Of a stretch of 64,000 bases of DNA, positions 22,859 to 36,298 are shown piece after piece (positions within the stretch are counted from its first letter, which is position 1; the number at the start of each line of letters is the position of its first letter). The stretch spans positions 1,178,001 through 1,242,000 of the forward strand of contig CM073202.1 in assembly GCA_037042915.1 (NCBI GenBank), read 5' to 3'. The notes beneath the pieces were generated by a model that was not told the origin of the DNA, did not search any database, and was given only the letters and a program-made list of their open reading frames with translations. Origin of the DNA: Auricularia sp. M13. Lineage: Eukaryota; Basidiomycota; Agaricomycetes; Auriculariales; Auriculariaceae. Position numbers and translations under genes: made by a program.

Positions 22859-24290
22859 CTACGCTGGTCCCGCCACAGAAGTCGCCACGGTTGTTGAGCC
22901 GGCAGGGTCAGGTTCGTCGCCGTCGTCAAGCTTGCACCAGTCGACCGGGCCCTCAGGCCCGTAGCGGTCCTGCAGCCAGCGGTTCGCCGCGAGAAAATGA
23001 CCGTTGCCTGAAAAACCGCGATAGCAGCTCAACGGGGACGGGTGCTGTGCTGGTCGTCAGTTAAAGCTGTCACGGGTCGCGAGAGAGGCTAAACCGCCAC
23101 CGGACTGGCAGCAGGTAGCCGAACAGTTACAGTCACAGCTACGACCCGGGAAGCATGTAATACGCACAGCGCTGGTTAGCACGAGATGTTTGCTCTGCGG
23201 TATGCGGTGTGCGGTGTGTGCGGAAACGAGGTGAGCTCGGGCGGCGACGGACAGACCGCGACCGTCACGGCGCGGTACAGCGGACGCACCTTATTGAGCC
23301 GGGCGGTGCACTTCTGCGCCCAGGCGCCCCAGGCCATGAAGACGACGCCGCGCCCGATGCCGGTTGCCTCGCCGTGTGCATCGCGGATGTTCGCACCGCC
23401 GTACCGGTCGACGAGCGCAAGAACTGCCTCGGTGAATTTCTCCCAGCCCTTGTCCTGGTGGCTGCCCGCAGCTCCGGGACGCACGGTCAGCGATGTATTG
23501 AGCAGAAGGACGCCCTGCTTTGCCCAGCCCTCCAGATTGCCGTGGCAGGGAATCGCGAAGTCGCTGTATTCCGCTTTGACCTCGTTGTAAATCTGGCACG
23601 TAGGTCAGCAAATGCATCACATGAGCGCGTGGCAGGTGCGTGTACATTGACCAGTGACGGAGGAATAGTCACTCCACGAGGGACGGAGAAGCTCAATCCG
23701 TGCGCTTGCTTTGGGCCGTGGTATGGGTCTTGGCCTACAATGACGACCTTGACGCGTCCTAAAGGCGTGTATCGAGACCATGCATAGATATCAGGCGCGG
23801 GAGGATATATCTTGAGGTTCTGCAAAGGCTCAGGGTCCGACAGATCCTTGAGGCCCTCGTCGCGCAAGAATCGCTTGAGCGCAAGGAAATACGGTTTTCG
23901 AATCTCGTCTTTAAGCATCTTGAGCCTGCGACCCATGTAAGACAGAATCACATCGCGCAGCGGGACTACGCACCATACGGGGCTAAGGGTTTCGCATTCG
24001 AGGTTGAGGAGCGCGCGCTGATCCTCGGACAGAGAGTTGAGAAATACGGTCAGCGAGAACGGGACCGAGTTGAGCTTGGTTGGCGACGACGACGTGCTCG
24101 CGGGCAGCGGGTTCGTCTTGCGACGCTTTGTGGCCCCGACGTCAAAGAGGGTCCGCTGCCGCTTCTCGCCACCCTTTGCGCTCGCCGTGTCGGGCGACGC
24201 GTGGGCTCTGGATGCCGCAGCCTTAGACTTCGCGATGTCGGCGGCTGCTATGTCCTCCAGGTAGACGGTGTTTTCGGCCTGCTCAGACAT
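22859..24290 (-). CDS. UNG1: Uracil-DNA glycosylase
   Basis: Removes uracil from DNA in base-excision repair, nucleus and/or mitochondria. Exons 24290-23646, 23592-23290, 23194-23168, 23044-22859; 386 aa. Family-1 UDG motifs are all present: water-activating loop [44 protein letters not shown] and the Leu-loop HPSPLS. The N-terminus (about 100 residues) is charged and carries KRQRTLFD, close to the PCNA-binding/RPA-type QxTLF pattern of Ung N-termini. Exon 3 is only 27 nt, in phase 0, and supplies the strand just before HPSPLS. The start codon lies immediately beside the target-site duplication of the retrotransposon at 24304-35932; only 13 nt of native leader remain. The coding frame itself is intact. 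Confidence 0.95.
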
Positions 24291-24303
24291 GATGCTGACG
24301 CGC
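24290..24303. repeat. Target-site duplication, left copy
   Basis: TGATGCTGACGCGC, identical to 35933-35946 just after the poly(A) tail. The preceding A (24289) also matches but cannot be told from the tail. Its first base is the A of the UNG1 ATG on the minus strand. Confidence 0.9.
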
Positions 24304-25200
24304 GCGGGGGTTTTCCCGTGACCATCATGTCCGGTACGACGCAAGCCGAGAATCGGCCAACCCCCTCACTCTGACAACATCGCGCGGACTGCGCTGCGCT
24401 GGCGAAGTGGCCGAAAGGCCCGGCCGTGAATAAAAGCTGGAATCCCCGGGGCATAGACCCCTCAGACATCGTCTAAATACGTCTGGACGGCCCGTCGTGA
24501 CCAGCCGTAGGCAACAGGCGAGCCAAGGAATGAGCTACCCCTCAGTCGAGCCAGGCAGACCGGCAGGAGGGAACCTACTCGAGACCTGCCGGGCGACGAG
24601 GCGAGCGCCTCGGAGCAAGGCGGGCACAAATGCGGAAAGATGACTAGAATATGAGGCCTCCGTTGGAATATGAATATATGGCAGCCAAGCCACTGCCACA
24701 TGCGCACTTCGGCGAGTAAAGCTCTGGCTACGCCGCCCCAGTCGAGCCCGCCGTCCTAGCTGAATCCACCGGCCGGCCCCGGTCCGAGTTTTAGAGTTCC
24801 GGATGAACTACCGCCAGCACCTGCAACACATGGGCGCTGAAAATAGGTACTTGGCCGACCTTTTGCTATAAGGTATCAATGTGCCGCCAGTTGTCCTCTT
24901 ACGACCGCCCGAGGGAAGCGGCGAAGGGTCGGCTGACCGGCAGGGTTAAAGCAAATAGCACCGAGTATAATAATAACCACGCCTGCTGCTTAGCAACATC
25001 GGGAAATCCCGGGATCAGACCAGGCCTGCGCACAACGACCCCAACGCACCACAGAGACCAAAGTGGGCTAAGGCCAAGACGCACAGCGCCGAGGAGGGCA
25101 TGTGAGCTGTACGAAGACAGGACAAGCGATGAGCAGTGCGAAAACCCAGTTATCAAGCCAAAGTACAGCCCCCATGCCCAGCCCAGCGGCCACAGAGCTG

Positions 25201-25238
25201 GATCGTCGCAGTATTCAACCTCGATCACTGCGACGATC
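25201..25238. repeat. Inverted repeat (hairpin)
   Basis: GATCGTCGCAGT at 25201-25212 and its exact reverse complement at 25227-25238, separated by 14 nt. A 12-bp perfect stem within the LINE 5' region. Confidence 0.85.
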
Positions 25239-25271
25239 TCAGTATTCATGCTCGATCACTACGACGATCTC
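25210..25271. repeat. 31-bp tandem duplication
   Basis: Two adjacent copies (25210-25240, 25241-25271), each beginning AGTATTC and ending ACGATCTC, with a few substitutions. Overlaps the right arm of the hairpin. May be a promoter or structural unit of the LINE. Confidence 0.85.
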
Positions 25272-25984
25272 AGAAGTAGAATGGTGGCGAAAGTAGGACG
25301 TCAACGTCAGCGACGACCACTCCCGCATCTGAGGCGCCTGACCCCCTTCTTCCACTCGCAGTCACCATGCCCGCCCAAGCCAGCCATACCAGCGGCACCA
25401 CCAAGCCCGAACCGGCGCAGGATGAGATGCTGCCCCAATACAGGAGCGCAGACGGTTGGCTCCGCAACCGTGGCATACAGGCGCGTGAGATGCGCAAGCG
25501 CTTAGCACTCCCGACCCCGAGAGCTCTGCGGCCGGCAGACGAGCCAAAGGCTCACGCTCATGGCTCGGGAGGGCCAGCACCCGGCGACGTAGAGCAGCAA
25601 TGTGCTGAAGGGGAAGAGGCGGAGCCTACGGCCGCACGCGCTGAATCAGGCCTCCCCATCAGTGCTGACACACTGCGAGGTTCGTCGTATGACCACAGCT
25701 TGGGCATGCCCTCACAGTACCCCGTCCAGACGCTAGCAACCCCGGCATACCAGATAAGCCGAGCCGCGCAGCTGCGCCCCGTGCGCCTATAACAATCACG
25801 TGCCACGGCGGCTGCGGGAAAACCTTCCGATACTGGCAATCGCGATCCAGGCACTGGGCAAGATACCCGGGTTGTGAGGAACGTCACGCGGCCTTCATAG
25901 TGGGCACGAAGGAAGAGAGGAGCTATAATATACGTGCGGCAAGGAAGGAAAGCGCACGGGCCAAGCAACAGTTTCCCCGTCCCT

Positions 25985-26004
25985 AATTCAATTCAATTCA
26001 ATTA
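25985..26004. repeat. AATTC microsatellite
   Basis: Three AATTC units and a final AATTA in tandem inside the LINE 5' region. Confidence 0.85.
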
Positions 26005-26811
26005 CCTGTGAATCTAATTTATCTTGCGGCGTGATCACACTGGCCATGCAGTTAGGCCTGCAACGGTATAACCAGCAGGCAGCGAGAGCCCTCATTACGG
26101 CAACTACTGGGGGAGACGGTCGTTTCTCCATTTACCGACATGCCTCACGCACGCGCCTCTGAGTTGTCGCCCGAAGCGCGCTTTCTGCATCTGCAGACAT
26201 ACCGGCCACTGCAGCCGAAAGGCGGGCCCGAACCACGCGACCCGGCCCGCCCGGAACTGGCCCGGGACCGCGCGAACGGGCTTCGTACGCCGGGCCACCA
26301 GGACCACGACGCTTCCCTCGCCCATCGTGCGTACACGCTCCGGGCGGACAACAAGCTCGAAGCTGCCGTGCTACAGGCTGGGGATGCGGAGGACTGGACC
26401 GCCGCGGCGCGGGACCGCGGCAGGGCGCTAATTTTCAAACCCAGCGCCCCCTTCAGACTTCCACGCCATCACTGCGGCCTGGAACGGACTGCCCACGGCC
26501 GCGCTGCCCCGGCCTCCTCTGCGGACGCCCCCAGCAGTCGCGCCACGAGCACGAGATGCGCACACTGACATGCGACGGACGCATCAACGCCCCCGCGGAC
26601 AGGCGTCGTGTCGCCGCTTTACAAATGGGCTGCCGGCAACACGTAGGCGCTCGCTCTGGCCCCCAGGTCTGCCAGCCAGATGTCGACCTGCGCCCTATTG
26701 ACTAAACTCGCGGATCGTCTCGCAGCGACGTAGCCTGCCGCGATCGTCCATGCCACCCTCGCCGTCACTGGAACCTGGCTTGTAGCCCCGCCTGTCAGTG
26801 CTGGAAGCGAG

Positions 26812-27726
26812 ATGGCCGCCCTCACATATACGCCAGCCCCACGCCGTGGCGCCCTCCCTTCCCTCCTCCCCCCCTCACGCGCGCCCGCGGAGTCCAGCGA
26901 CATGCAAGATAACGATCAGCCAGACGCGGAACAAGTCCCACCGGCACCGCCGCGTGCAGAGCCAGCCGGCCCCGAACCCCAGTCCTCCACTGCTGCGGCG
27001 CACACGACCGACGCCATACGGGCGACCACGCCTGCTTCAAGCAGTGGGCCGGGCGTAGACGCTGCGCGCGCCCCCCAGGAGACGGAGCCCAGGCTGTCTA
27101 CGCGCACCTGCGAGCCGCTGAGCGCTTCGTCCGTGGGCTCGACACTCGCACAGCCGAGCCGCACGCCCGCGAAGCCCTTGGAAAACAAAAAACGCGAACT
27201 GCCCCCCACACCAAGCGACGAGGCGGCTCAACGCGCTCGCCAGCTGGCGCTCGCGGACCAGTGGCTCCAGAAGTCCCGCTCCGTCGCCATGTCCGCAGGA
27301 CGGGGCCGCATCACCGCGGACATCGCGGAACGGGCAGCGGTCGCGGCGGCATCGATGGCAACAGTCCTCACGCACGCCGAAGAGGCGCTAGACGCCGCAG
27401 AACACGCAACGGAGCCGCACGACGAGGACTGGCCCCCCTTGGGCAGCGCCATCCCGCGACCTGCAACCGCCGCCAACGGCAGCAGCGACAGCCGGGCCGG
27501 AGTCGCCACACTGCCCCAGCAAAACTGGGCGCACGCCGTGACGCACCCACAGGCGCACTCCAAGACGACGCTCACGGCGTTGCCGACGACGAGGTCGGAA
27601 AAGGCGAAGGCTGTCGCAGCCGCGGCCGACACCCTGAACCGGCCGCGACACCTTGTTGTAGGCCTGCCCAAAATCGGCGCATGGGCGACCAAAGTACGCG
27701 AGCGTGCCCACACCGTCTTGCACTAG
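26812..27726 (+). CDS. LINE ORF1, N-terminal frame
   Basis: 304 codons from an ATG at 26812 (another in-frame ATG at 26902). Pro/Ala/Ser-rich first half, then a Glu/Arg/Ala-rich stretch predicted helical (DEAAQRARQLALADQWLQKS to AEEALDAAEH). Ends at a TAG at 27724. Codon use and position fit an ORF1 nucleic-acid-binding protein, but no domain is recognised. Reading past the TAG in the same frame stays open for another 300 nt, and the next ORF1 frame begins 115 nt downstream in a different frame. The two frames may therefore be one protein joined by frameshifting, splicing or in a parental copy without this lesion. Confidence 0.6.
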   Translation: MAALTYTPAPRRGALPSLLPPSRAPAESSDMQDNDQPDAEQVPPAPPRAEPAGPEPQSSTAAAHTTDAIRATTPASSSGPGVDAARAPQETEPRLSTRTCEPLSASSVGSTLAQPSRTPAKPLENKKRELPPTPSDEAAQRARQLALADQWLQKSRSVAMSAGRGRITADIAERAAVAAASMATVLTHAEEALDAAEHATEPHDEDWPPLGSAIPRPATAANGSSDSRAGVATLPQQNWAHAVTHPQAHSKTTLTALPTTRSEKAKAVAAAADTLNRPRHLVVGLPKIGAWATKVRERAHTVLH

Positions 27727-27841
27727 CTAACCCGCCCAGGGGAACGGTTTCACCAGGTCCGTCCCAGCCGACCCGCCGCGCGACGCAGGGTGGGAATCCG
27801 CGCCGCCGCCACTCCCCGCACGCTCACAAGAAAGCACCCGC

Positions 27842-29779
27842 GTGGCGACACAGGGTGCGCGGCGCGCACTGGAAGAACAGGCCGGAGGGATGGGCTCTGC
27901 AGAGATGGATATCTCAAGTCGCTCCTCAAGGCCGGCCGCCTCGCTCAAGATCAACACGGGCTTCCGCCTCCCCCTCCCAGGCCCATCGCCAATGACCCGT
28001 CAACCCGGCCCACTCGCTGCCGCGGACGGAAGCGAGGATGACGACGACGAAGCCGAGTCGCCCTGCGACGGTCCAAGCAGGCGAGCACAACTACTACGGG
28101 CCGCATCTAGCAGCGCGCAGGGCCTTCGCCGCCGCCCGGGCCCGGCTGCGGCCGCAGCCAGTGCTGTGGGAGGACAGGATATATCCATGGCGGAGGACCG
28201 GGCGGTCGACGAGCCCGAAGACGAGCTGGCGTCGCAGCAAGAGGACGCCGAACACGAGCCCTGCGCGCAGCCATTCCCGCCGCCCTCACCGTCCCAGTCC
28301 CCTCCGCCACGAGCGCCGCCCCGCCACGGAGGTATGGACGGTGAAGCACCGCTAGCGACGCCGGCGGAACGCGCCGCCGCCAGCCGCATCTCCGACCTCC
28401 TCGACGACACTACGGTGCGCGTGGTGGCTCTTGGGAACCAGTGCGACCTGGACGGCATGCCTGAGGACGGCCACCTGACCGGGGTACGCGAGCAGCAACG
28501 CGCCCACTTCGACATGCTCGCGCAGGACGGCGAGCATATCATCATCGCCAGGATCCCTATGCCGGGCCTCCGCCGCCGCAAGAACGATACGGTCATACAG
28601 CGCGCGCAGCGTCGCTTCGAGCATAACCTAGACCGCCTCAACATTCCAGGCCTCAACGGCCCGCTACAAGTGGTGCTCGCTAACATCCCGCCCAACGACC
28701 CGGACCCCGACATCATCGACCTCACGTTCTTCATCCGGGGTGCGACGCAGGAGGTCAAAGCTATGTTCGTTGCTGGCGGGCACTGGCTCATCGGAATGTC
28801 CAAAGTCATGTTCTACCCGCACCACGTAGCCCGCTCCAGACTCCTCGTTTCCCTTGGCGGCCTCACCGTCCCCGCGCAGGCCCTCCCCGTCCTTGTCGAC
28901 GCCATCCGCGAACAGTGGAAGAAGGACAAATACCTCGCCCTGCTCTTCACGCTCATGTCAAACGACGAAGTCGACGCGAACATGAACGCGCAGGAGAGCG
29001 ATGTCGCAGTAGCCGCAGCCCGCACGGTGCAAGATACTGACGACACCGGGTCGATGGGATACCATGGCAACGACGAGCTGTCGACACAGCCTGAGCCGAA
29101 GGTGAAGCAGACAGTGTCCGCCCGTGATCATTTCTTCAGGACAATCGAGGTCGTCCAGGCCGAGTCCCGACAATTTGGCACGCCCGTCACCCTGCACCAC
29201 GTCTACGCGGATACACGGGGGATCTCGGACGAGATCCACAAGTCCATCCGCAACGCCGTCGAGGGTATCCGCATCGAGCACCCCATCTTCCAGTACGGCA
29301 CTGCCAGGCCCTGGAAATGCCAACGCTGCCGCTCGCACGCACACCAGACGCACGACTGCCCGCTCGCGAAGCTCGACGCCATCGCGAACGCTGCAGCGCC
29401 CACGCTGTCTGCCATCCCCACGCGCGCGGAGTTCGACGCGCGTGAAGCCGGCGCCGACGTCAAGCAACCAGCCCCCCCGGCGCGCGGACGGGGTCGAGGA
29501 CGGGGCGGCAAACAACAAGACGCGCTGCGCCGTCGCCGGGACGTAGATAGGGGCGCGCGCTCGGGCTGGCAGAACGGCCGGGACACCACTGACGACCGAC
29601 AGGAGGGCCCGAGCCATGGCCATCAGAACCGGCGCACTGGCCAACACCGACGCCGCGAGCAGGCGCAGGGCTGGACAGACGACGAATATGCGCGAGACAG
29701 TGACCGCCGCACGCGCGGCCGGCGCGGAGCACGCCAGGGCGGCCGCCGTCACCGCGAAGATGACGACGGGGACTACTAG
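27842..29779 (+). CDS. LINE ORF1, zinc-knuckle frame (Gag-like)
   Basis: 645 codons from a GTG; first ATG is at 27890 (MGSAEMDISS). Acidic Pro-rich N-terminus, a folded central region (residues about 200-420, with HIIIARIPMPGLRR, LQVVLANIPPNDPD and LVSLGGLTVPA), and a CCHC knuckle CQRCRSHAHQTHDC at 29318-29359. The tail is Arg/Gly-rich. CCHC knuckles and basic tails are the hallmark of ORF1 proteins of several LINE clades, which bind the element RNA. No esterase or RRM was identified. Lies in the same frame as ORF2, with stops between. Confidence 0.75.
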   Translation: MATQGARRALEEQAGGMGSAEMDISSRSSRPAASLKINTGFRLPLPGPSPMTRQPGPLAAADGSEDDDDEAESPCDGPSRRAQLLRAASSSAQGLRRRPGPAAAAASAVGGQDISMAEDRAVDEPEDELASQQEDAEHEPCAQPFPPPSPSQSPPPRAPPRHGGMDGEAPLATPAERAAASRISDLLDDTTVRVVALGNQCDLDGMPEDGHLTGVREQQRAHFDMLAQDGEHIIIARIPMPGLRRRKNDTVIQRAQRRFEHNLDRLNIPGLNGPLQVVLANIPPNDPDPDIIDLTFFIRGATQEVKAMFVAGGHWLIGMSKVMFYPHHVARSRLLVSLGGLTVPAQALPVLVDAIREQWKKDKYLALLFTLMSNDEVDANMNAQESDVAVAAARTVQDTDDTGSMGYHGNDELSTQPEPKVKQTVSARDHFFRTIEVVQAESRQFGTPVTLHHVYADTRGISDEIHKSIRNAVEGIRIEHPIFQYGTARPWKCQRCRSHAHQTHDCPLAKLDAIANAAAPTLSAIPTRAEFDAREAGADVKQPAPPARGRGRGRGGKQQDALRRRRDVDRGARSGWQNGRDTTDDRQEGPSHGHQNRRTGQHRRREQAQGWTDDEYARDSDRRTRGRRGARQGGRRHREDDDGDY

Positions 29780-30382
29780 TCCACACACGCGTTGCGCGCG
29801 TCCCCCCCCCTCTCTCTCTCTCATCACGGACTCTTTCTTGACCCAACAACCGCCACTACGGCGACGCTACGAGTCTTTCTTGCCAGTACCACGCGGCGGG
29901 GATTTTCGCCCCACGCCCTCTTGTCGACCCAACCTCTTGCGTACATTTGCTCCCCACCCGGTAACCCACGCCGCCGCCCACTGCCCACGATGCGCCCCCT
30001 CCTCTCCCACACTGCCGTGTATCTACATGCCTGTGCGACGGTTCCCCCCACCCGCCTGTGCAATTCTTGTCCGCTGGCCTCGTACATATCCTCTTGATGT
30101 GCACACTTGTCCGTAGATACCCGAGTAATAGCACGGCCTTAAAGCGAGCTGTCCGAAGTGAGAAAGCCGAGTTCCCCACTTCCAACATTGTGCCCCCCCT
30201 GAAGAGCTAAGCATCATCTCTGAGGGATGCCCCTGCGATGCCAAATATACTGCTAGACAGAGGCGACGCGGGGAGCGGCGGCCTATTTAGGCCTCGGACG
30301 TGCCGCGCGGAGACGCTGAAGTCCCTCCCCGACGTGCTGCAGGCTCGGCCCCTGCATCACTTCGAAGGTGACATAGTCCGGC
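29780..30382. other. LINE inter-ORF region
   Basis: About 600 bp between the ORF1 stop and the first possible ORF2 codon. Begins with a C-rich and CT-repeat stretch (29804-29822). Short frames only. How ORF2 is translated (reinitiation or internal entry) is not evident. Confidence 0.5.
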
Positions 30383-33300
30383 GTGTTGGTCGCACACCAA
30401 CTATGCCCTGGCCGGCGCGCTGGCCGGCCGGTGGCAAAATATACAGCGCAACCTGCACCACAACCCCATTCACAAACGGTATCCTACAACCGGTCTGGTT
30501 TAGCGTCTCCCGGAAGCGGAGCCGACGCTGCCCCGTCCACGCAGACTGTCGGCAATGATGTGCCGGGAGCCACGGCAAGTGGACTCAGGTCGAGGTACGA
30601 GGGAGCCGACGACGAGCGCCAAGCGCAGCATCGTGCTTTCTCTCAGTCACCTCAGCCCCAGGAAGACATACTGCGCACTGCAAATGGCAGTGCTGGCAGC
30701 CAACAAGAGGCGATGCATGCAGAGTCTCCGCCAGCGGGCAACGACCAACAGGCGGCTACGCCCGCCAACGCATCACGCGGTGCCCCCCCACGCGCCGCCC
30801 CGAGAGCGCGTCGATCGGCGCCGACTGCACAGAGTGCCAAGAAGACAAAGGCCTCCTTACACATTGCATCCGAGAATATGCGCGGTCGCGGGGCCGCGAA
30901 GGTCCAGAAAAGCCAGAAATGGCGGAAAATAGCGGACGACATGAAGAGGCAACAAATCGGCGTCATGGCCCTACAAGAGACGCATCTCGATGACCAAATG
31001 GCGTTAGATATACAACGGCTATATAGACACCTGGCCGTCTACAATACCCCGTTGCCGGAGAATCCGACAGGCGCGGGAGGGGTGGCACTAGTATTCAATG
31101 GCCTGCTCACCAATGCCGCCACGGTCAGAACGAGGACCCTGGTGCCCGGTAGAGCTATCCAAGCTTTACTCAACTGGCACAATGATGACGAGCTGAGCAT
31201 CCTCGCTGTATATGCACCCACCGACCGGAATGAGAACCACGAGATGTGGAATACCGTCCACGACGAGATTCGACGGAACATTGCGAATTTTCCCAAGCCG
31301 GACGTCGTCCTCGGCGACTTCAATTTCGTAGAAGACTCAATAGATCGCTTTCCAGCCGGTATATCGGCGATGGACATGCCGGAAAATTTCGACTGTCTCA
31401 AAACATACCTGCGCGTAACGGACGGCTGGAGGGAGACATTCCCGAGCACGTTGGAATGGTCGTGGCGGAACGCCTCACGCTCAGCCATGTCACGCATAGA
31501 CCGCATTTACTTAACTCATGAGCTAAACCTGGCCAGCTGCGACTGGGAAATTAGACTCTCTGAAATAAACAGAGACGACCACAGTCGTGTCTCGGTTAAG
31601 CTGCGGAACCCGCGTGCCCCTGACATTGGCCCGGGCCGCTGGACGATGCGCCCAGAGCTCTGCAAAGATAAGGTTTTCCTAGACGAGGCCGAAAGACTGG
31701 GCGCTGCAGCGGCAAAGGCATTGCTCTGTGTGGAAATAGAAGGCCGCTCTGAGATCAGGAACGCGCAGTCTGTATGGCAGGGTCTCAAAGCAGACCTCAT
31801 CGTAGCTGCCAAGCGCCGGCTTCGGGACTCAAAATGCGCAAAACTCACAGCCCTAAAAAAGAAGCTCGAACAACGCACCTCAGCCAGGGACGCGTTGCGC
31901 CATGCGACCTCGCCGGAGGATCAGGCCGCTGCACAGGAGCAGCTGAAATCAATAGAATCAGCCATTTTCAAGCTCCAAGATATTTCACGTACCAAAACTT
32001 TTCGCCAGCGCTCAGCAACAGCCTGGGCAGAAGGCGAAACCATGGCCCGATCGTGGTTCAGCTGGGCACGTGACCAAAAGCCACGTGACACCATGCTGGC
32101 CTTAAAACGGCCCGGTGTTCCCGGGCAGCCTATAGTTACCACATCCCAGGCGATGGCTGAGCTAGCTAAAGAATATCATGACAGCGTACAGAATGTGGAC
32201 CTTCAGGTGGACGAGGCCCTTCGTAGCGAAGCTGTCAACAATGTCCTGGAGCACATCGATCACGAGCACGCCCACCATGGCAACAGCGAGCTCATGTCCC
32301 CGCTAAGTAAAGAGACGACGAGGGAAGATGTATTAGAGGCTATCAGACTCTCCCCCTCTGGGAAAGCGGCAGGGACTGATGGGATCATCTACGAGCTGTG
32401 GAAGACCCTGCACCAGAAACACTGCGACTCTGCAAAATCGGAACGCCGGGCCTTTGACGTAGCTGGGATCATGACCGCGGCCTTCAAAGACCTGGAACTG
32501 CATGGACTTAGCGAGGGCTCGAATTTCACCGACGGCTGGCTGTGCCCACTGTATAAAAAGGGCGACCGTACAGATATAGCGAACTACAGGCCGATCACGC
32601 TTCTTAACTCAGACTACAAACTTTTCACCAAAGTCCTTGCGCTGAAACTCGCGAGGATAGCCCCGCAGCTAGTCCACGAATCCCAGGCTGGATTTGTGCG
32701 CGGACGGAGCATCACTGACCATACTAAAATTGCGGACATGGTTATAAACTTCGCGGAAGCCATGGAAGAAAATGGGGCCATAATAGCTCTGGATCAAGAG
32801 AAGGCCTATGACAGAATTAGGCACGACTACCTGTACAACGTCCTCCAAAGATATGGATTCCCGGAACTTTTCGTAAAGACTGTCAAGTCCCTCTATGAAA
32901 ACGCATACACGAGCGTCATGATCAACGGGTGCATGAGCAGCAAATATCGAGTAACACGTGGGGTACGTCAGGGGGACCCCCTGTCGTGCCTGCTCTTCAA
33001 CTTCGCAATCGAACCTCTGCCAGCGATGCTGCGCGCTTCGAACCTGCGAGGTTTCGAGATCGAAGGGCTGGAACAGAAACTGATAGCCACCCTGTACGCG
33101 GATGATACGACTGTATACCTCTCCGAACATGACTCATACGGCCGCCTAGTCGGAATCCTGCAGGAATGGTGCCTCGCAGCAGGGGCCAAGTTCAACATTA
33201 CGAAGACTGAGGTCATCCCACTTGGCACCGAGGCGTACAGAGCCAATATGGTGGCGTCAAGACGCCTGCACGAGGCGGACGACGAGATCCCACAGCCGAT

Positions 33301-35737
33301 CAGGATCGCCAGAGACAGAGAGCCGACGCGAATTCTGGGCTCCTGGCCCGGCAACGAAGTTATAGGTGCCAACACCTGGGCCCCAGTGATCGACAAAGTC
33401 CGCAAAGCCCTAGACAGATGGGAGAGGACCCTGCCGACTTTGAACGGGCGGAGCCTCATCACACAGGTGGTGATAGGAGGGTTCACACAATACCTAACTG
33501 CAGCACAAGGTATGCCGGACGCGATTGAGAAGCGGCTGGATAAAATCGCGATAGACTTCATTTGGCAAGGGAAGAAACGACATCCCGTGAATGTCGAGAC
33601 CCTACAGCTGGCCAAAGACAACGGCGGCATCGGTCTCCTTAGTACTCGCGAGCGGAACGATGCCCAGTATCTGTCATGGCTGAGCGCGTACCTGCGCGAC
33701 GACGACGCACGGCCAACATGGGCGTACGTGGCGGACCACGTCTTTCGAAAATCGATCACGACGAAGGACCGGGGCCGCGTGCACGAGCACCTCCGCACCA
33801 ATCCCTTCGTCCAGTCGTGGCAGCCGAACGCAAGGCGTCTCCCCCTGACGCTCCGCAAAATGCTGTACGTAGCAAAGAGGTACCACCTCACCATAGCCCC
33901 GGCAACCGTCACTCAGGACGCACGAGAGAACGCAAATGTCTGGGTACACCCAGCTCTGATGACGGACCAGCAGCTGAAACTGAGCAATCCCGCCTTCCGA
34001 TGCCTCAGGAGCCATCATGCGGTGTATACGGTTGAGCACCTGATGGAAATCGCTGAGATGGACGAACCGGACCACGAGGACGACGCCGAGTGTGGGTGCG
34101 CAAACTGTGAGGAAGACCGTGCCCAAGGCTGCAGTAACCCAGCCCGGTGCCAAAACGCGGCAGCAGAGGTCCTGAGCAACATTGCGCCACGCTGGAATCC
34201 GTACACAGCCAACACACACCATGAGTCGACGCTGGCGCTGGAATTTGCTGACCAGAGAGAGACAGCTCTAGACACCGGGGAGCTGCTGGTTTTCGACCCC
34301 AACCCATGTGTAAGCCAGAATTTGTCGGACTACTATCGGATCTTCGTCCATGCCTTTGGGATCAGCCCCGGCCCGGCCACGGAGGTGCATAGAGCAGAAG
34401 CTGGCATGCCAGACCCGCTCCCAGTAGCACAGGACGCAGTACACGCGATAATATGCGGCGCAGTCCGCAGAATAGGCGAAGAGAGTGCGACGAGCGGAAT
34501 GGCGATCGTTTTCCCAGACAAGGAACACCCTGATGTAGCCAGCGCCTGCAGCGGCCCGGAACGCAGCGAGGAACTCAGTACGGCGCAAGCAATCATCCTA
34601 GCAGCTGGACTGGTCCCCAAGAATCAGGTCCTGCACATCACCGCGACGAACCGGTCGATTGTAGAGGCCTTGACGCTCAAGTTGCACAAAAACGAGAGCG
34701 ACGGCTGGCTGCGACGGCCCCAAGTAGCCGCGACCATGCGGCACGTTGTGGCAGCACTGCGGACGCGGAACGCCGAGACAACCTTCACATTTGTGGATAA
34801 GCACCGCCGGCAGGCTTGGCCTGAGATTGCGGCGGCCAAGGCGATGGCGAGTTTGGCCGCGGATGGGGGCGAGGACCAGATACAACTGCCAGCGGCGCAG
34901 CCGCTGTACGACCAGCCTGGAATAGCCCTGGCGGGCCTCACGCAGCGACGTGCACATCACGCGATCCGCGCGCTGAATAATGCCAAAATCGCGACGCGTC
35001 GGGCGACTGCGAGGAACCTCGCAACAGTTGGCCGTAGCATCAAGGCGGAGTGTGGCACCACGCCCAGCAATGAACAGATCTGGCGGAGCCTGCGGGACAG
35101 AGATCTGTCGAGGAATGTCAGGAACTTCATCTGGAAAGGCCTGCATGGAGCTCATAAAGTGGGCGATTATTTCAAGCACATGCCAGAACCATGGGGCCCG
35201 CTGAGACTGTGCCCAGCATGCGGAGTAACTGAGTCAATGGAGCACATTCTCTTTGCGTGCCCGAGCTCTGGCCACGAGACCATCTGGGCCTTGACAAAGG
35301 TCTTCCTGGCACACAAGAAGATCAGCGGGGAGATTAATATAGGGCTGGTATGGGGCTGCATGCTAATCCGATCCCGTACCTCCGAGGACTTCGAAGAAAA
35401 GGCCGCAGAGCGCGCCAAACGCATTGTCGTGTCCGAAGCGGCCTTCCTAGCGTGGAAGTTCCGCTGCGAGGCACGGATGGAGCACGCGGATGAGCCAAAC
35501 TGGGCCCCGCCGGCGAGCCGGGTCAGCGACACCTGGCGGGCAATGATGAAGGAACGTCGCGTCCGCGACAAGCTGCTGGCACACAGGAAGACTCGATGCA
35601 CCGCGGCACGCGCGCGCGAGCTGGCCGCCGAAACTTGGCGGTCGCGGACAAATCTACGGGACGCCGCGCCCGACATTAGACAAACCGGAGTTTTAGTGGG
35701 TAACGAGTCGCACGACCTCGCCGACGGCATCGGCTAG
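30383..35737 (+). CDS. LINE ORF2: endonuclease, reverse transcriptase
   Basis: 1784 codons from a GTG, 1674 from the first ATG at 30713; no stop or frameshift. Order: Pro/Ala-rich leader; apurinic-type endonuclease from about 30860 (IASENMRGRG, MALQETHLDD, AVYAPTDRN, VVLGDFNFVE, SRIDRIYLT, DDHSRVSVKL with the catalytic H); reverse transcriptase with ANYRPITLLNSDYKL, QAGFVRGRSITDH, ALDQEKAYDRI, GVRQGDPLSCLLF and catalytic YADD at 33095-33106. An RNase H-like region follows at about 34440-34900, where the acidic residues look lost. A C-terminal CPACGVTESMEHILFAC motif (zf-RVT type) lies near 35210-35265, then a basic tail. All core RT and endonuclease motifs seem intact, so the enzyme could be active. 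Confidence 0.92.
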   Translation: MLVAHQLCPGRRAGRPVAKYTAQPAPQPHSQTVSYNRSGLASPGSGADAAPSTQTVGNDVPGATASGLRSRYEGADDERQAQHRAFSQSPQPQEDILRTANGSAGSQQEAMHAESPPAGNDQQAATPANASRGAPPRAAPRARRSAPTAQSAKKTKASLHIASENMRGRGAAKVQKSQKWRKIADDMKRQQIGVMALQETHLDDQMALDIQRLYRHLAVYNTPLPENPTGAGGVALVFNGLLTNAATVRTRTLVPGRAIQALLNWHNDDELSILAVYAPTDRNENHEMWNTVHDEIRRNIANFPKPDVVLGDFNFVEDSIDRFPAGISAMDMPENFDCLKTYLRVTDGWRETFPSTLEWSWRNASRSAMSRIDRIYLTHELNLASCDWEIRLSEINRDDHSRVSVKLRNPRAPDIGPGRWTMRPELCKDKVFLDEAERLGAAAAKALLCVEIEGRSEIRNAQSVWQGLKADLIVAAKRRLRDSKCAKLTALKKKLEQRTSARDALRHATSPEDQAAAQEQLKSIESAIFKLQDISRTKTFRQRSATAWAEGETMARSWFSWARDQKPRDTMLALKRPGVPGQPIVTTSQAMAELAKEYHDSVQNVDLQVDEALRSEAVNNVLEHIDHEHAHHGNSELMSPLSKETTREDVLEAIRLSPSGKAAGTDGIIYELWKTLHQKHCDSAKSERRAFDVAGIMTAAFKDLELHGLSEGSNFTDGWLCPLYKKGDRTDIANYRPITLLNSDYKLFTKVLALKLARIAPQLVHESQAGFVRGRSITDHTKIADMVINFAEAMEENGAIIALDQEKAYDRIRHDYLYNVLQRYGFPELFVKTVKSLYENAYTSVMINGCMSSKYRVTRGVRQGDPLSCLLFNFAIEPLPAMLRASNLRGFEIEGLEQKLIATLYADDTTVYLSEHDSYGRLVGILQEWCLAAGAKFNITKTEVIPLGTEAYRANMVASRRLHEADDEIPQPIRIARDREPTRILGSWPGNEVIGANTWAPVIDKVRKALDRWERTLPTLNGRSLITQVVIGGFTQYLTAAQGMPDAIEKRLDKIAIDFIWQGKKRHPVNVETLQLAKDNGGIGLLSTRERNDAQYLSWLSAYLRDDDARPTWAYVADHVFRKSITTKDRGRVHEHLRTNPFVQSWQPNARRLPLTLRKMLYVAKRYHLTIAPATVTQDARENANVWVHPALMTDQQLKLSNPAFRCLRSHHAVYTVEHLMEIAEMDEPDHEDDAECGCANCEEDRAQGCSNPARCQNAAAEVLSNIAPRWNPYTANTHHESTLALEFADQRETALDTGELLVFDPNPCVSQNLSDYYRIFVHAFGISPGPATEVHRAEAGMPDPLPVAQDAVHAIICGAVRRIGEESATSGMAIVFPDKEHPDVASACSGPERSEELSTAQAIILAAGLVPKNQVLHITATNRSIVEALTLKLHKNESDGWLRRPQVAATMRHVVAALRTRNAETTFTFVDKHRRQAWPEIAAAKAMASLAADGGEDQIQLPAAQPLYDQPGIALAGLTQRRAHHAIRALNNAKIATRRATARNLATVGRSIKAECGTTPSNEQIWRSLRDRDLSRNVRNFIWKGLHGAHKVGDYFKHMPEPWGPLRLCPACGVTESMEHILFACPSSGHETIWALTKVFLAHKKISGEINIGLVWGCMLIRSRTSEDFEEKAAERAKRIVVSEAAFLAWKFRCEARMEHADEPNWAPPASRVSDTWRAMMKERRVRDKLLAHRKTRCTAARARELAAETWRSRTNLRDAAPDIRQTGVLVGNESHDLADGIG

Positions 35738-35932
35738 GACTGTCGCTCGAGCCCCACACTACCCACATGGGTGTGCGTAAAGCATTTCTCCGGACGGTAG
35801 CGTCCATTGCTCTCCAAAGGCGGTGCTAGCACCGCCGCAAACCAGCCCTGCAAAGGAAGGAGGACGGTTGAGCCACTATGTGGTTGTGACCCCCTCTGAC
35901 GCTCCACAAAAAAAAAAAAAAAAAAAAAAAAA
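35738..35932 (+). other. LINE 3' UTR and poly(A) tail
   Basis: 170 bp of 3' UTR followed by 25 consecutive A residues (35908-35932). The tail length and purity argue for a recent target-primed insertion. Confidence 0.9.
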
Positions 35933-35946
35933 TGATGCTGACGCGC
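35933..35946. repeat. Target-site duplication, right copy
   Basis: TGATGCTGACGCGC directly after the poly(A) tail, identical to 24290-24303. Confidence 0.9.
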
Positions 35947-36298
35947 AAAATGTCAAGAGCCAGGATGCCACGCGCGGTGACAAGTGACAGATCGATTCGC
36001 GCCGCCGGGAATAAGCGATGAGTTCTTTGCCATCCGCCGTCCGGTGCTAACAACCCAACTCACAAACAGAAAGACATAGCCGACGTGCTGCATACATGCT
36101 GCAAGTTCAACGAGGTCGTACATCGCTCAGGTATCACGCGAGTGGTGATTTCAAGAACGTCCGGAAATACTTCGGATGCACGCTTTGAACTCCGCCTTGC
36201 CACTCACCGACAAGACCAGTACTCGCAGCGTCGTACAAGCCGAGAGCACGGTGAGGACTGCTAGGGTTGCTTCATCAGTCCAAAGCTATAATTGTTGA
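35947..36298. promoter_or_regulatory. Probable displaced UNG1 promoter
   Basis: 352 bp between the right duplication and the stop codon of the dehydrogenase gene (-). Removing the LINE would place this stretch 13 bp upstream of the UNG1 ATG, so it is the expected native promoter of UNG1 (and the dehydrogenase 3' region). No specific site recognised. Inference rests on the target-site duplication. Confidence 0.6.

Follow-up and report, generated by a model that had tools for sequence, protein, structure and literature searches.

A full-length LINE at the start codon separates one of two UNG genes from its upstream region in Auricularia sp. M13

The closest known systems to the retrotransposon described here are fungal APE-type non-LTR elements with an RNase H, putatively those of the Tad1-like clade. 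It resembles Tad1-like elements in its APE endonuclease, reverse transcriptase (RT), RNase H-like fold, 3′ A tail and target duplication. It differs from them in a further upstream ORF, common to a relative on contig C2, and its RNase H-like domain seems, by eye, to be without most of the catalytic acids. Human LINE-1 provides a second comparison: in both elements the 5′ region faces a neighbouring gene head-to-head, and the window protein bearing APE and RT matches L1 ORF2p. Unlike LINE-1, the window LINE is 11.6 kb long and has an RNase H-like domain, and an antisense promoter is only putative here.

Transposable elements (TEs) next to fungal genes have been described in Pleurotus ostreatus, where repression is expected in part of the cases according to extracts of that report (PMC4905642). 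As excerpted, that work concerns mainly Gypsy LTR elements, whereas the present case is a LINE lying exactly at a start codon and known from sequence alone. Active fungal LINEs are represented by MarorLINE of Marasmius oreades; in the excerpted account, MarorLINE-6 is single-copy and inferred to be a master copy, and new insertions vary in 5′-end length, whereas the window LINE is 5′ complete (PMC9674265). Tad, Deceiver and L1 elements are recorded in extracts concerning Laccaria bicolor (PMC3411680). None of the titles and abstract openings listed from the open-licence literature described a LINE at UNG in a fungus. The mechanism at the present locus is an ordinary one and the case is neat: the point at which a full-length LINE parts a repair gene from its upstream sequence is resolved to the base.

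Insertion boundaries and the interrupted UNG gene

The window is the whole 64-kb stretch of DNA that was analysed (C10:1178001-1242000), and genome searches covered 52.1 Mb on 14 contigs. The features that define the insertion are as follows, in window coordinates:

22859..24290, minus strand: UNG gene, 370 aa, hand-made model without cDNA, intact in the model
24290-23974, 23925-23646, 23592-23290, 23194-23168 and 23044-22859, minus strand: the five UNG exons
24290..24303, plus strand: left copy of the target-site duplication, TGATGCTGACGCGC, whose opening base is paired with the A of the UNG ATG on the minus strand
24304..24334, plus strand: LINE 5′ terminus, closely matched by that of the C2 relative; its antisense carries two out-of-frame ATGs
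24304..35932, plus strand: APE-type non-LTR retrotransposon (LINE) at full length, 11,629 bp with the tail counted
35908..35932, plus strand: A25 tail, exactly 25 A
35933..35946, plus strand: right copy of the target-site duplication, an exact TGATGCTGACGCGC
35947..36298, minus strand: native upstream region of UNG, now 11.6 kb off; the end coordinate is that of the earlier, sequence-only reading

The left and right copies of TGATGCTGACGCGC were identical at 14/14 bases and were the only two sites of this 14-mer in a scan of the plus strand of the window. Each has an A in front of it; as this additional base cannot be distinguished from the tail, the length of the duplication is 14 or 15 bp. 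The right copy directly follows the A25 tail, the sole run of 12 or more A or T in the 64 kb. As a control, 10,000 14-mers were drawn at random from the window, and 26 of them had a second exact copy on the plus strand. With one copy following the sole long A tail and the other standing at the 5′ boundary of the LINE, chance is excluded. The UNG start codon occupies 24290-24288 on the minus strand, the duplication begins with the A of this ATG, and 13 nt of the native leader are left. The sequence-only reading had described an exact 14-bp repeat after a 25-A tail as the target-site duplication of a single full-length 11.6-kb LINE, with the left copy opening on the A of the UNG start codon and 13 nt of leader kept. 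These boundaries were borne out, and the element was 5′-complete.

The four introns of the UNG model measure 48, 53, 95 and 123 nt and have GT-AG ends throughout. Retaining the 48-nt intron, which keeps the frame, yields a 386-aa protein, the version with which the genome was searched. The model scored 238.2 bits against the TIGR00628 cut-off of 185.75, identifying it as a family-1 UNG. This model and that of a second UNG, on contig C4, each passed four of the five NCBIfam UNG models listed, NF003591 being missed. GQDPYH and HPSPLS are kept in the window UNG, and the expected motifs were found in both the window and the C4 models. With its introns left in, the window frame had no Pfam hit at 0.001.

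A 2-hydroxyacid dehydrogenase gene lies beyond 35947-36298 on the same strand as UNG; UNG's own upstream region should therefore fall mostly within this interval. No match to a TATA or CCAAT pattern was found in 35947-36298, and its position makes it the putative UNG promoter. As anatomy, the separation of UNG from its native upstream region had been read correctly, and the UNG frame is intact in the model. The name UNG1 given in that reading is not established, the genome having two UNG loci.

The LINE, its relatives and its age

The coding content of the LINE comprises three frames, all of which have counterparts in the C2 relative:

26812..27726, plus strand: upstream ORF, 304 aa; its counterpart at the equivalent place in the C2 relative is longer, with 55% identity over 222 columns
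27890..29779, plus strand: ORF1-like frame, 629 aa from the first ATG; 51% identity over 630 columns to the C2 relative
30383..35737, plus strand: ORF2, 1,784 aa as listed from a GTG; APE endonuclease, RT and RNase H-like fold

ORF2 contains a LINE-type RT (PF00078, 8.7e-34; human LINE-1 ORF2p among PDB sequences, E 1.3e-41), preceded by an APE-like endonuclease at residues 181-388 (PF03372, 2.2e-11). Matches to zf-RVT in ORF2 (E 0.019) and to a zinc knuckle in the ORF1-like frame (E 0.033) were below threshold, and the upstream ORF had no Pfam match at E up to 10. The latter frame is 304 aa long vs about 430 in C2, counted from the first ATG; being shorter, it indicates that the window copy may not be fully intact. 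The 3′ end is that of a LINE, with A25 and the 14-bp duplication and without long terminal repeats; a repeat search of the window found no repeats of 30 bp or more. Upstream of the first conserved ORF, the LINE carries a 31-bp unit present 2.1 times at 91% (window 25209-25273). A known RNA element at the LINE 5′ end was considered and rejected: the single Rfam match in 22.8-36.4 kb had E 2 and 22.1 bits vs a gathering score of 96.

The region after the RT (window 34430-35182) had no Pfam name at E up to 10. A structural model built from 6 aligned sequences had a mean pLDDT of 78.8 and a pTM of 0.62. In Foldseek, its best matches were to RNase HI (best E 1.3e-07; best 50 of 95 matches at E up to 0.001), and the model thus predicts an RNase H domain as a fold. 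When the alignment was inspected by eye, the canonical first Asp was replaced by Cys, Gly or Ser in the 6 sequences; other catalytic acids seem absent too. From its sequence, the RNase H-like domain of ORF2 may be catalytically dead.

The C2 relative has an ORF2 protein 65% identical to that of the window LINE and is bounded by its own duplication, AAGATACGATATCAAG, of 14-16 bp depending on tail bases, with an A31 tail. Its first ~30 bases are a near match to those of the window LINE and, in each element, directly follow the duplication. A 20-base core, CCCGTGACCATCATGTCCGG, is identical in the two termini, with a few differences before it. Without mismatch, CCCGTGACCATCATGTCCGG occurred exclusively in the window and C2 elements; 7 other matches were found at 3 mismatches, and the reversed pattern, used as a control, gave 4 hits. 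Because the terminus is nearly common to the two copies and directly follows the duplication of each, the LINE is read as 5′ complete, and 24304 is taken as its true 5′ end, C2 being the one relative compared. The 5′ end of a relative on C9 was not found: stretches of at least 10 bases from the start of its 3′ flank were absent from L004, L035 and L048. In one copy of a 50%-identical family (L016/L047), 7.1 kb held no credible duplication; the best candidate, 11 bp long, lay within the element. The C2 and C9 copies each stand at 65% identity to the window LINE, and their tails are A31 and A33.

The exact duplication, the pure A25 tail, the open ORF1 and ORF2, and the CpG content suggest that the window insertion is young. 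Specifically, CpG observed/expected was 1.06 in the LINE vs 1.12 and 1.19 in the flanks, so that CpG is not depleted in the element. No near-identical copy was found in the genome using the 5′ 2.5 kb, the 3′ 2.9 kb and the ORF2 protein as queries; copy counts from these searches are lower bounds. The 5′ 2.5 kb matched three other places, in short stretches at 72-84%. The 3′ 2.9 kb gave at least 43 rows including itself (40/43 candidates scored); among the matches listed, other stretches of at least 200 bases were 64-71% identical, and higher identity was confined to short stretches, reaching 89% over 46 bases. With the ORF2 protein, 26 rows were scored out of 355 candidates, itself included, and the best others stood at 65%. 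ORF2 was open, with no stop inside, in 24 of these 26 rows.

An A run of at least 15 was present in 24 of the 45 LINE loci scanned, the window copy included, with run lengths of 18-38. The base after the run was G in 16 of the 24; otherwise the flanks had no obvious likeness by eye. No site specificity was seen for these LINEs, 5′ duplications being confirmed for the window and C2 copies alone. A preference for gene starts was also considered and is not established, the flanks viewed being those of C2, as frame lists. Assuming 15,000 genes, the probability of landing at random within 15 bp of an ATG is about 0.009 per insertion; as the genome has 26 or more copies of ORF2, landing at the UNG start codon needs no special explanation.

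Expected consequences for UNG expression

We favour, with fairly high confidence, an explanation in which target-primed reverse transcription inserted a 5′-complete LINE at the UNG ATG, this UNG copy is strongly reduced and repair is buffered by the C4 gene. A staggered cut at the UNG initiation codon would have led to duplication of 14-15 bp. The LINE now lies head-to-head with UNG, whose frame is preceded by 13 nt of its own leader and then by the antisense of the LINE 5′ end. Most likely, the native promoter no longer makes UNG mRNA, and a transcript that started in the LINE 5′ region and ran through UNG would meet two out-of-frame ATGs, at -38 and -35.

Antisense to the LINE, the 600 bp ahead of the UNG ATG contain seven further ATGs. 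The pair at -38/-35 opens a frame other than that of UNG, which runs to a stop near +43 counted from the UNG A and so overlaps the UNG start; the -35 ATG has A at -3 and G at +4. The ATGs at -164 and -179 have this frame and stop in common with the pair. In-frame ATGs at -90 and -411 and an out-of-frame ATG at -541 all stop before UNG. The -38/-35 pair is inside the 5′ terminus common to the C2 element, which carries an identical antisense ATGATGG. Because of this pair, a UNG mRNA initiated in the LINE is expected to be translated poorly; exceptions would be transcripts that begin no more than about 35 nt from the ATG or that are rescued by splicing. With the same exceptions, strong reduction of the window UNG copy is most likely but not certain. 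The out-of-frame ATGs would thus form an obstacle to antisense rescue, one that is new here and absent from the sequence-only reading.

Silencing of the window UNG, as a reading of the locus, is unproven. According to extracts of the P. ostreatus report (PMC4905642), about half of the genes with a TE upstream or downstream were unaltered, 21 genes that were active in the TE-free allele were shut off under TE influence, and silencing across the models compared occurred exclusively with active cytosine methylation. Given the unaltered half, silencing is not to be taken for granted here. Counting against the favoured explanation are also the undepleted CpG of the LINE, the failure to find a near-identical source copy and the shorter upstream ORF.

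In an alternative that we consider unlikely but worth weighing, the LINE 5′ region acts as a bidirectional promoter that drives UNG normally or at a higher level, the insertion amounting to a promoter swap rather than a loss. The head-to-head orientation is consistent with this, as are the 2.5 kb of LINE ahead of the first frame conserved in C2; in addition, L1 antisense promoters yield chimeric mRNAs, according to an excerpted source (PMC4908685). An AG remains at 24296-24295, as read by hand, such that a chimeric splice is possible and could skip the upstream ATGs. However, the out-of-frame ATGs at -38/-35, together with those at -164/-179 in the same frame, argue against a swap that leaves UNG output unharmed, and no TATA or CCAAT pattern match occurs within 600 bp antisense. 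A more elaborate form, in which the bidirectional promoter controls one of the two UNG genes and the conserved antisense ATG pair gates translation, appears doubtful. Were this form true, how strongly a uracil-repair enzyme is expressed would depend on whether the adjoining retrotransposon is active or methylated. Promoter loss, antisense rescue and blocking by upstream ATGs are all directly testable here, in a fungus.

A second UNG and the less probable readings

The second UNG gene bears on what strong reduction of the window copy would mean for the genome:

C4:1404771-1406089 (L036): second UNG, family-1, 296 aa, 8 exons, hand-made model without cDNA

The C4 model has GT-AG introns and requires exons of 12 and 19 nt. 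It scored 259.5 bits on TIGR00628 (cut-off 185.75) and was 48.6% identical to the window UNG over 253 columns. Searched against its own genome, the window UNG gave 6 matches, 3 at the window gene and 3 on C4, the latter with E values of 4.0e-14, 0.0015 and 0.021; the genome thus has a UNG besides the window gene. In the reverse search, at E up to 10, all 9 matches of the C4 protein fell at the window and C4 loci, and hence at no third locus. A genome search with Pfam UDG returned no match and missed even the window gene, probably because introns split the gene; this result was not used as evidence.

With an intact model on C4, total uracil repair is probably buffered by the second gene. The sequence-only reading had held that the window UNG must be silenced or driven by antisense transcription from the LINE, and that reduced uracil repair would raise C-to-T mutation genome-wide. 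The separation of the window UNG from its promoter is in line with silencing; nevertheless, a second UNG stands on C4, above the family cut-off and complete in the model, so the genome-wide prediction does not follow and is unsupported. We consider a genome-wide loss of repair very unlikely. The insertion accordingly carries little weight for genome-wide mutation unless the C4 UNG cannot substitute.

A highly improbable alternative is that the native promoter still serves UNG through an ancestral 5′ exon with a donor GTGAGT at 36063 and an acceptor in the duplicated site, the LINE being spliced out as part of a very long intron. By hand, a candidate ATG at 36077 and this donor join in frame to the acceptor at 24296-24295, and the candidate intron would be 126 nt in the empty site. 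No clear branch point was seen by eye, however, the introns of the UNG model are 48-123 nt, and so short an in-frame candidate can be chance. Splicing across 11.6 kb would, moreover, be extraordinary in a fungus. An assembly artefact that wrongly joined the UNG flanks and the LINE merits almost no credence, as a perfect target duplication, an A25 tail and a 5′ terminus common to another full-length copy are not what a misjoin is expected to yield.

The paralog on C4 provides a built-in comparison for the window UNG. Two divergent family-1 UNGs thus occur in one genome.
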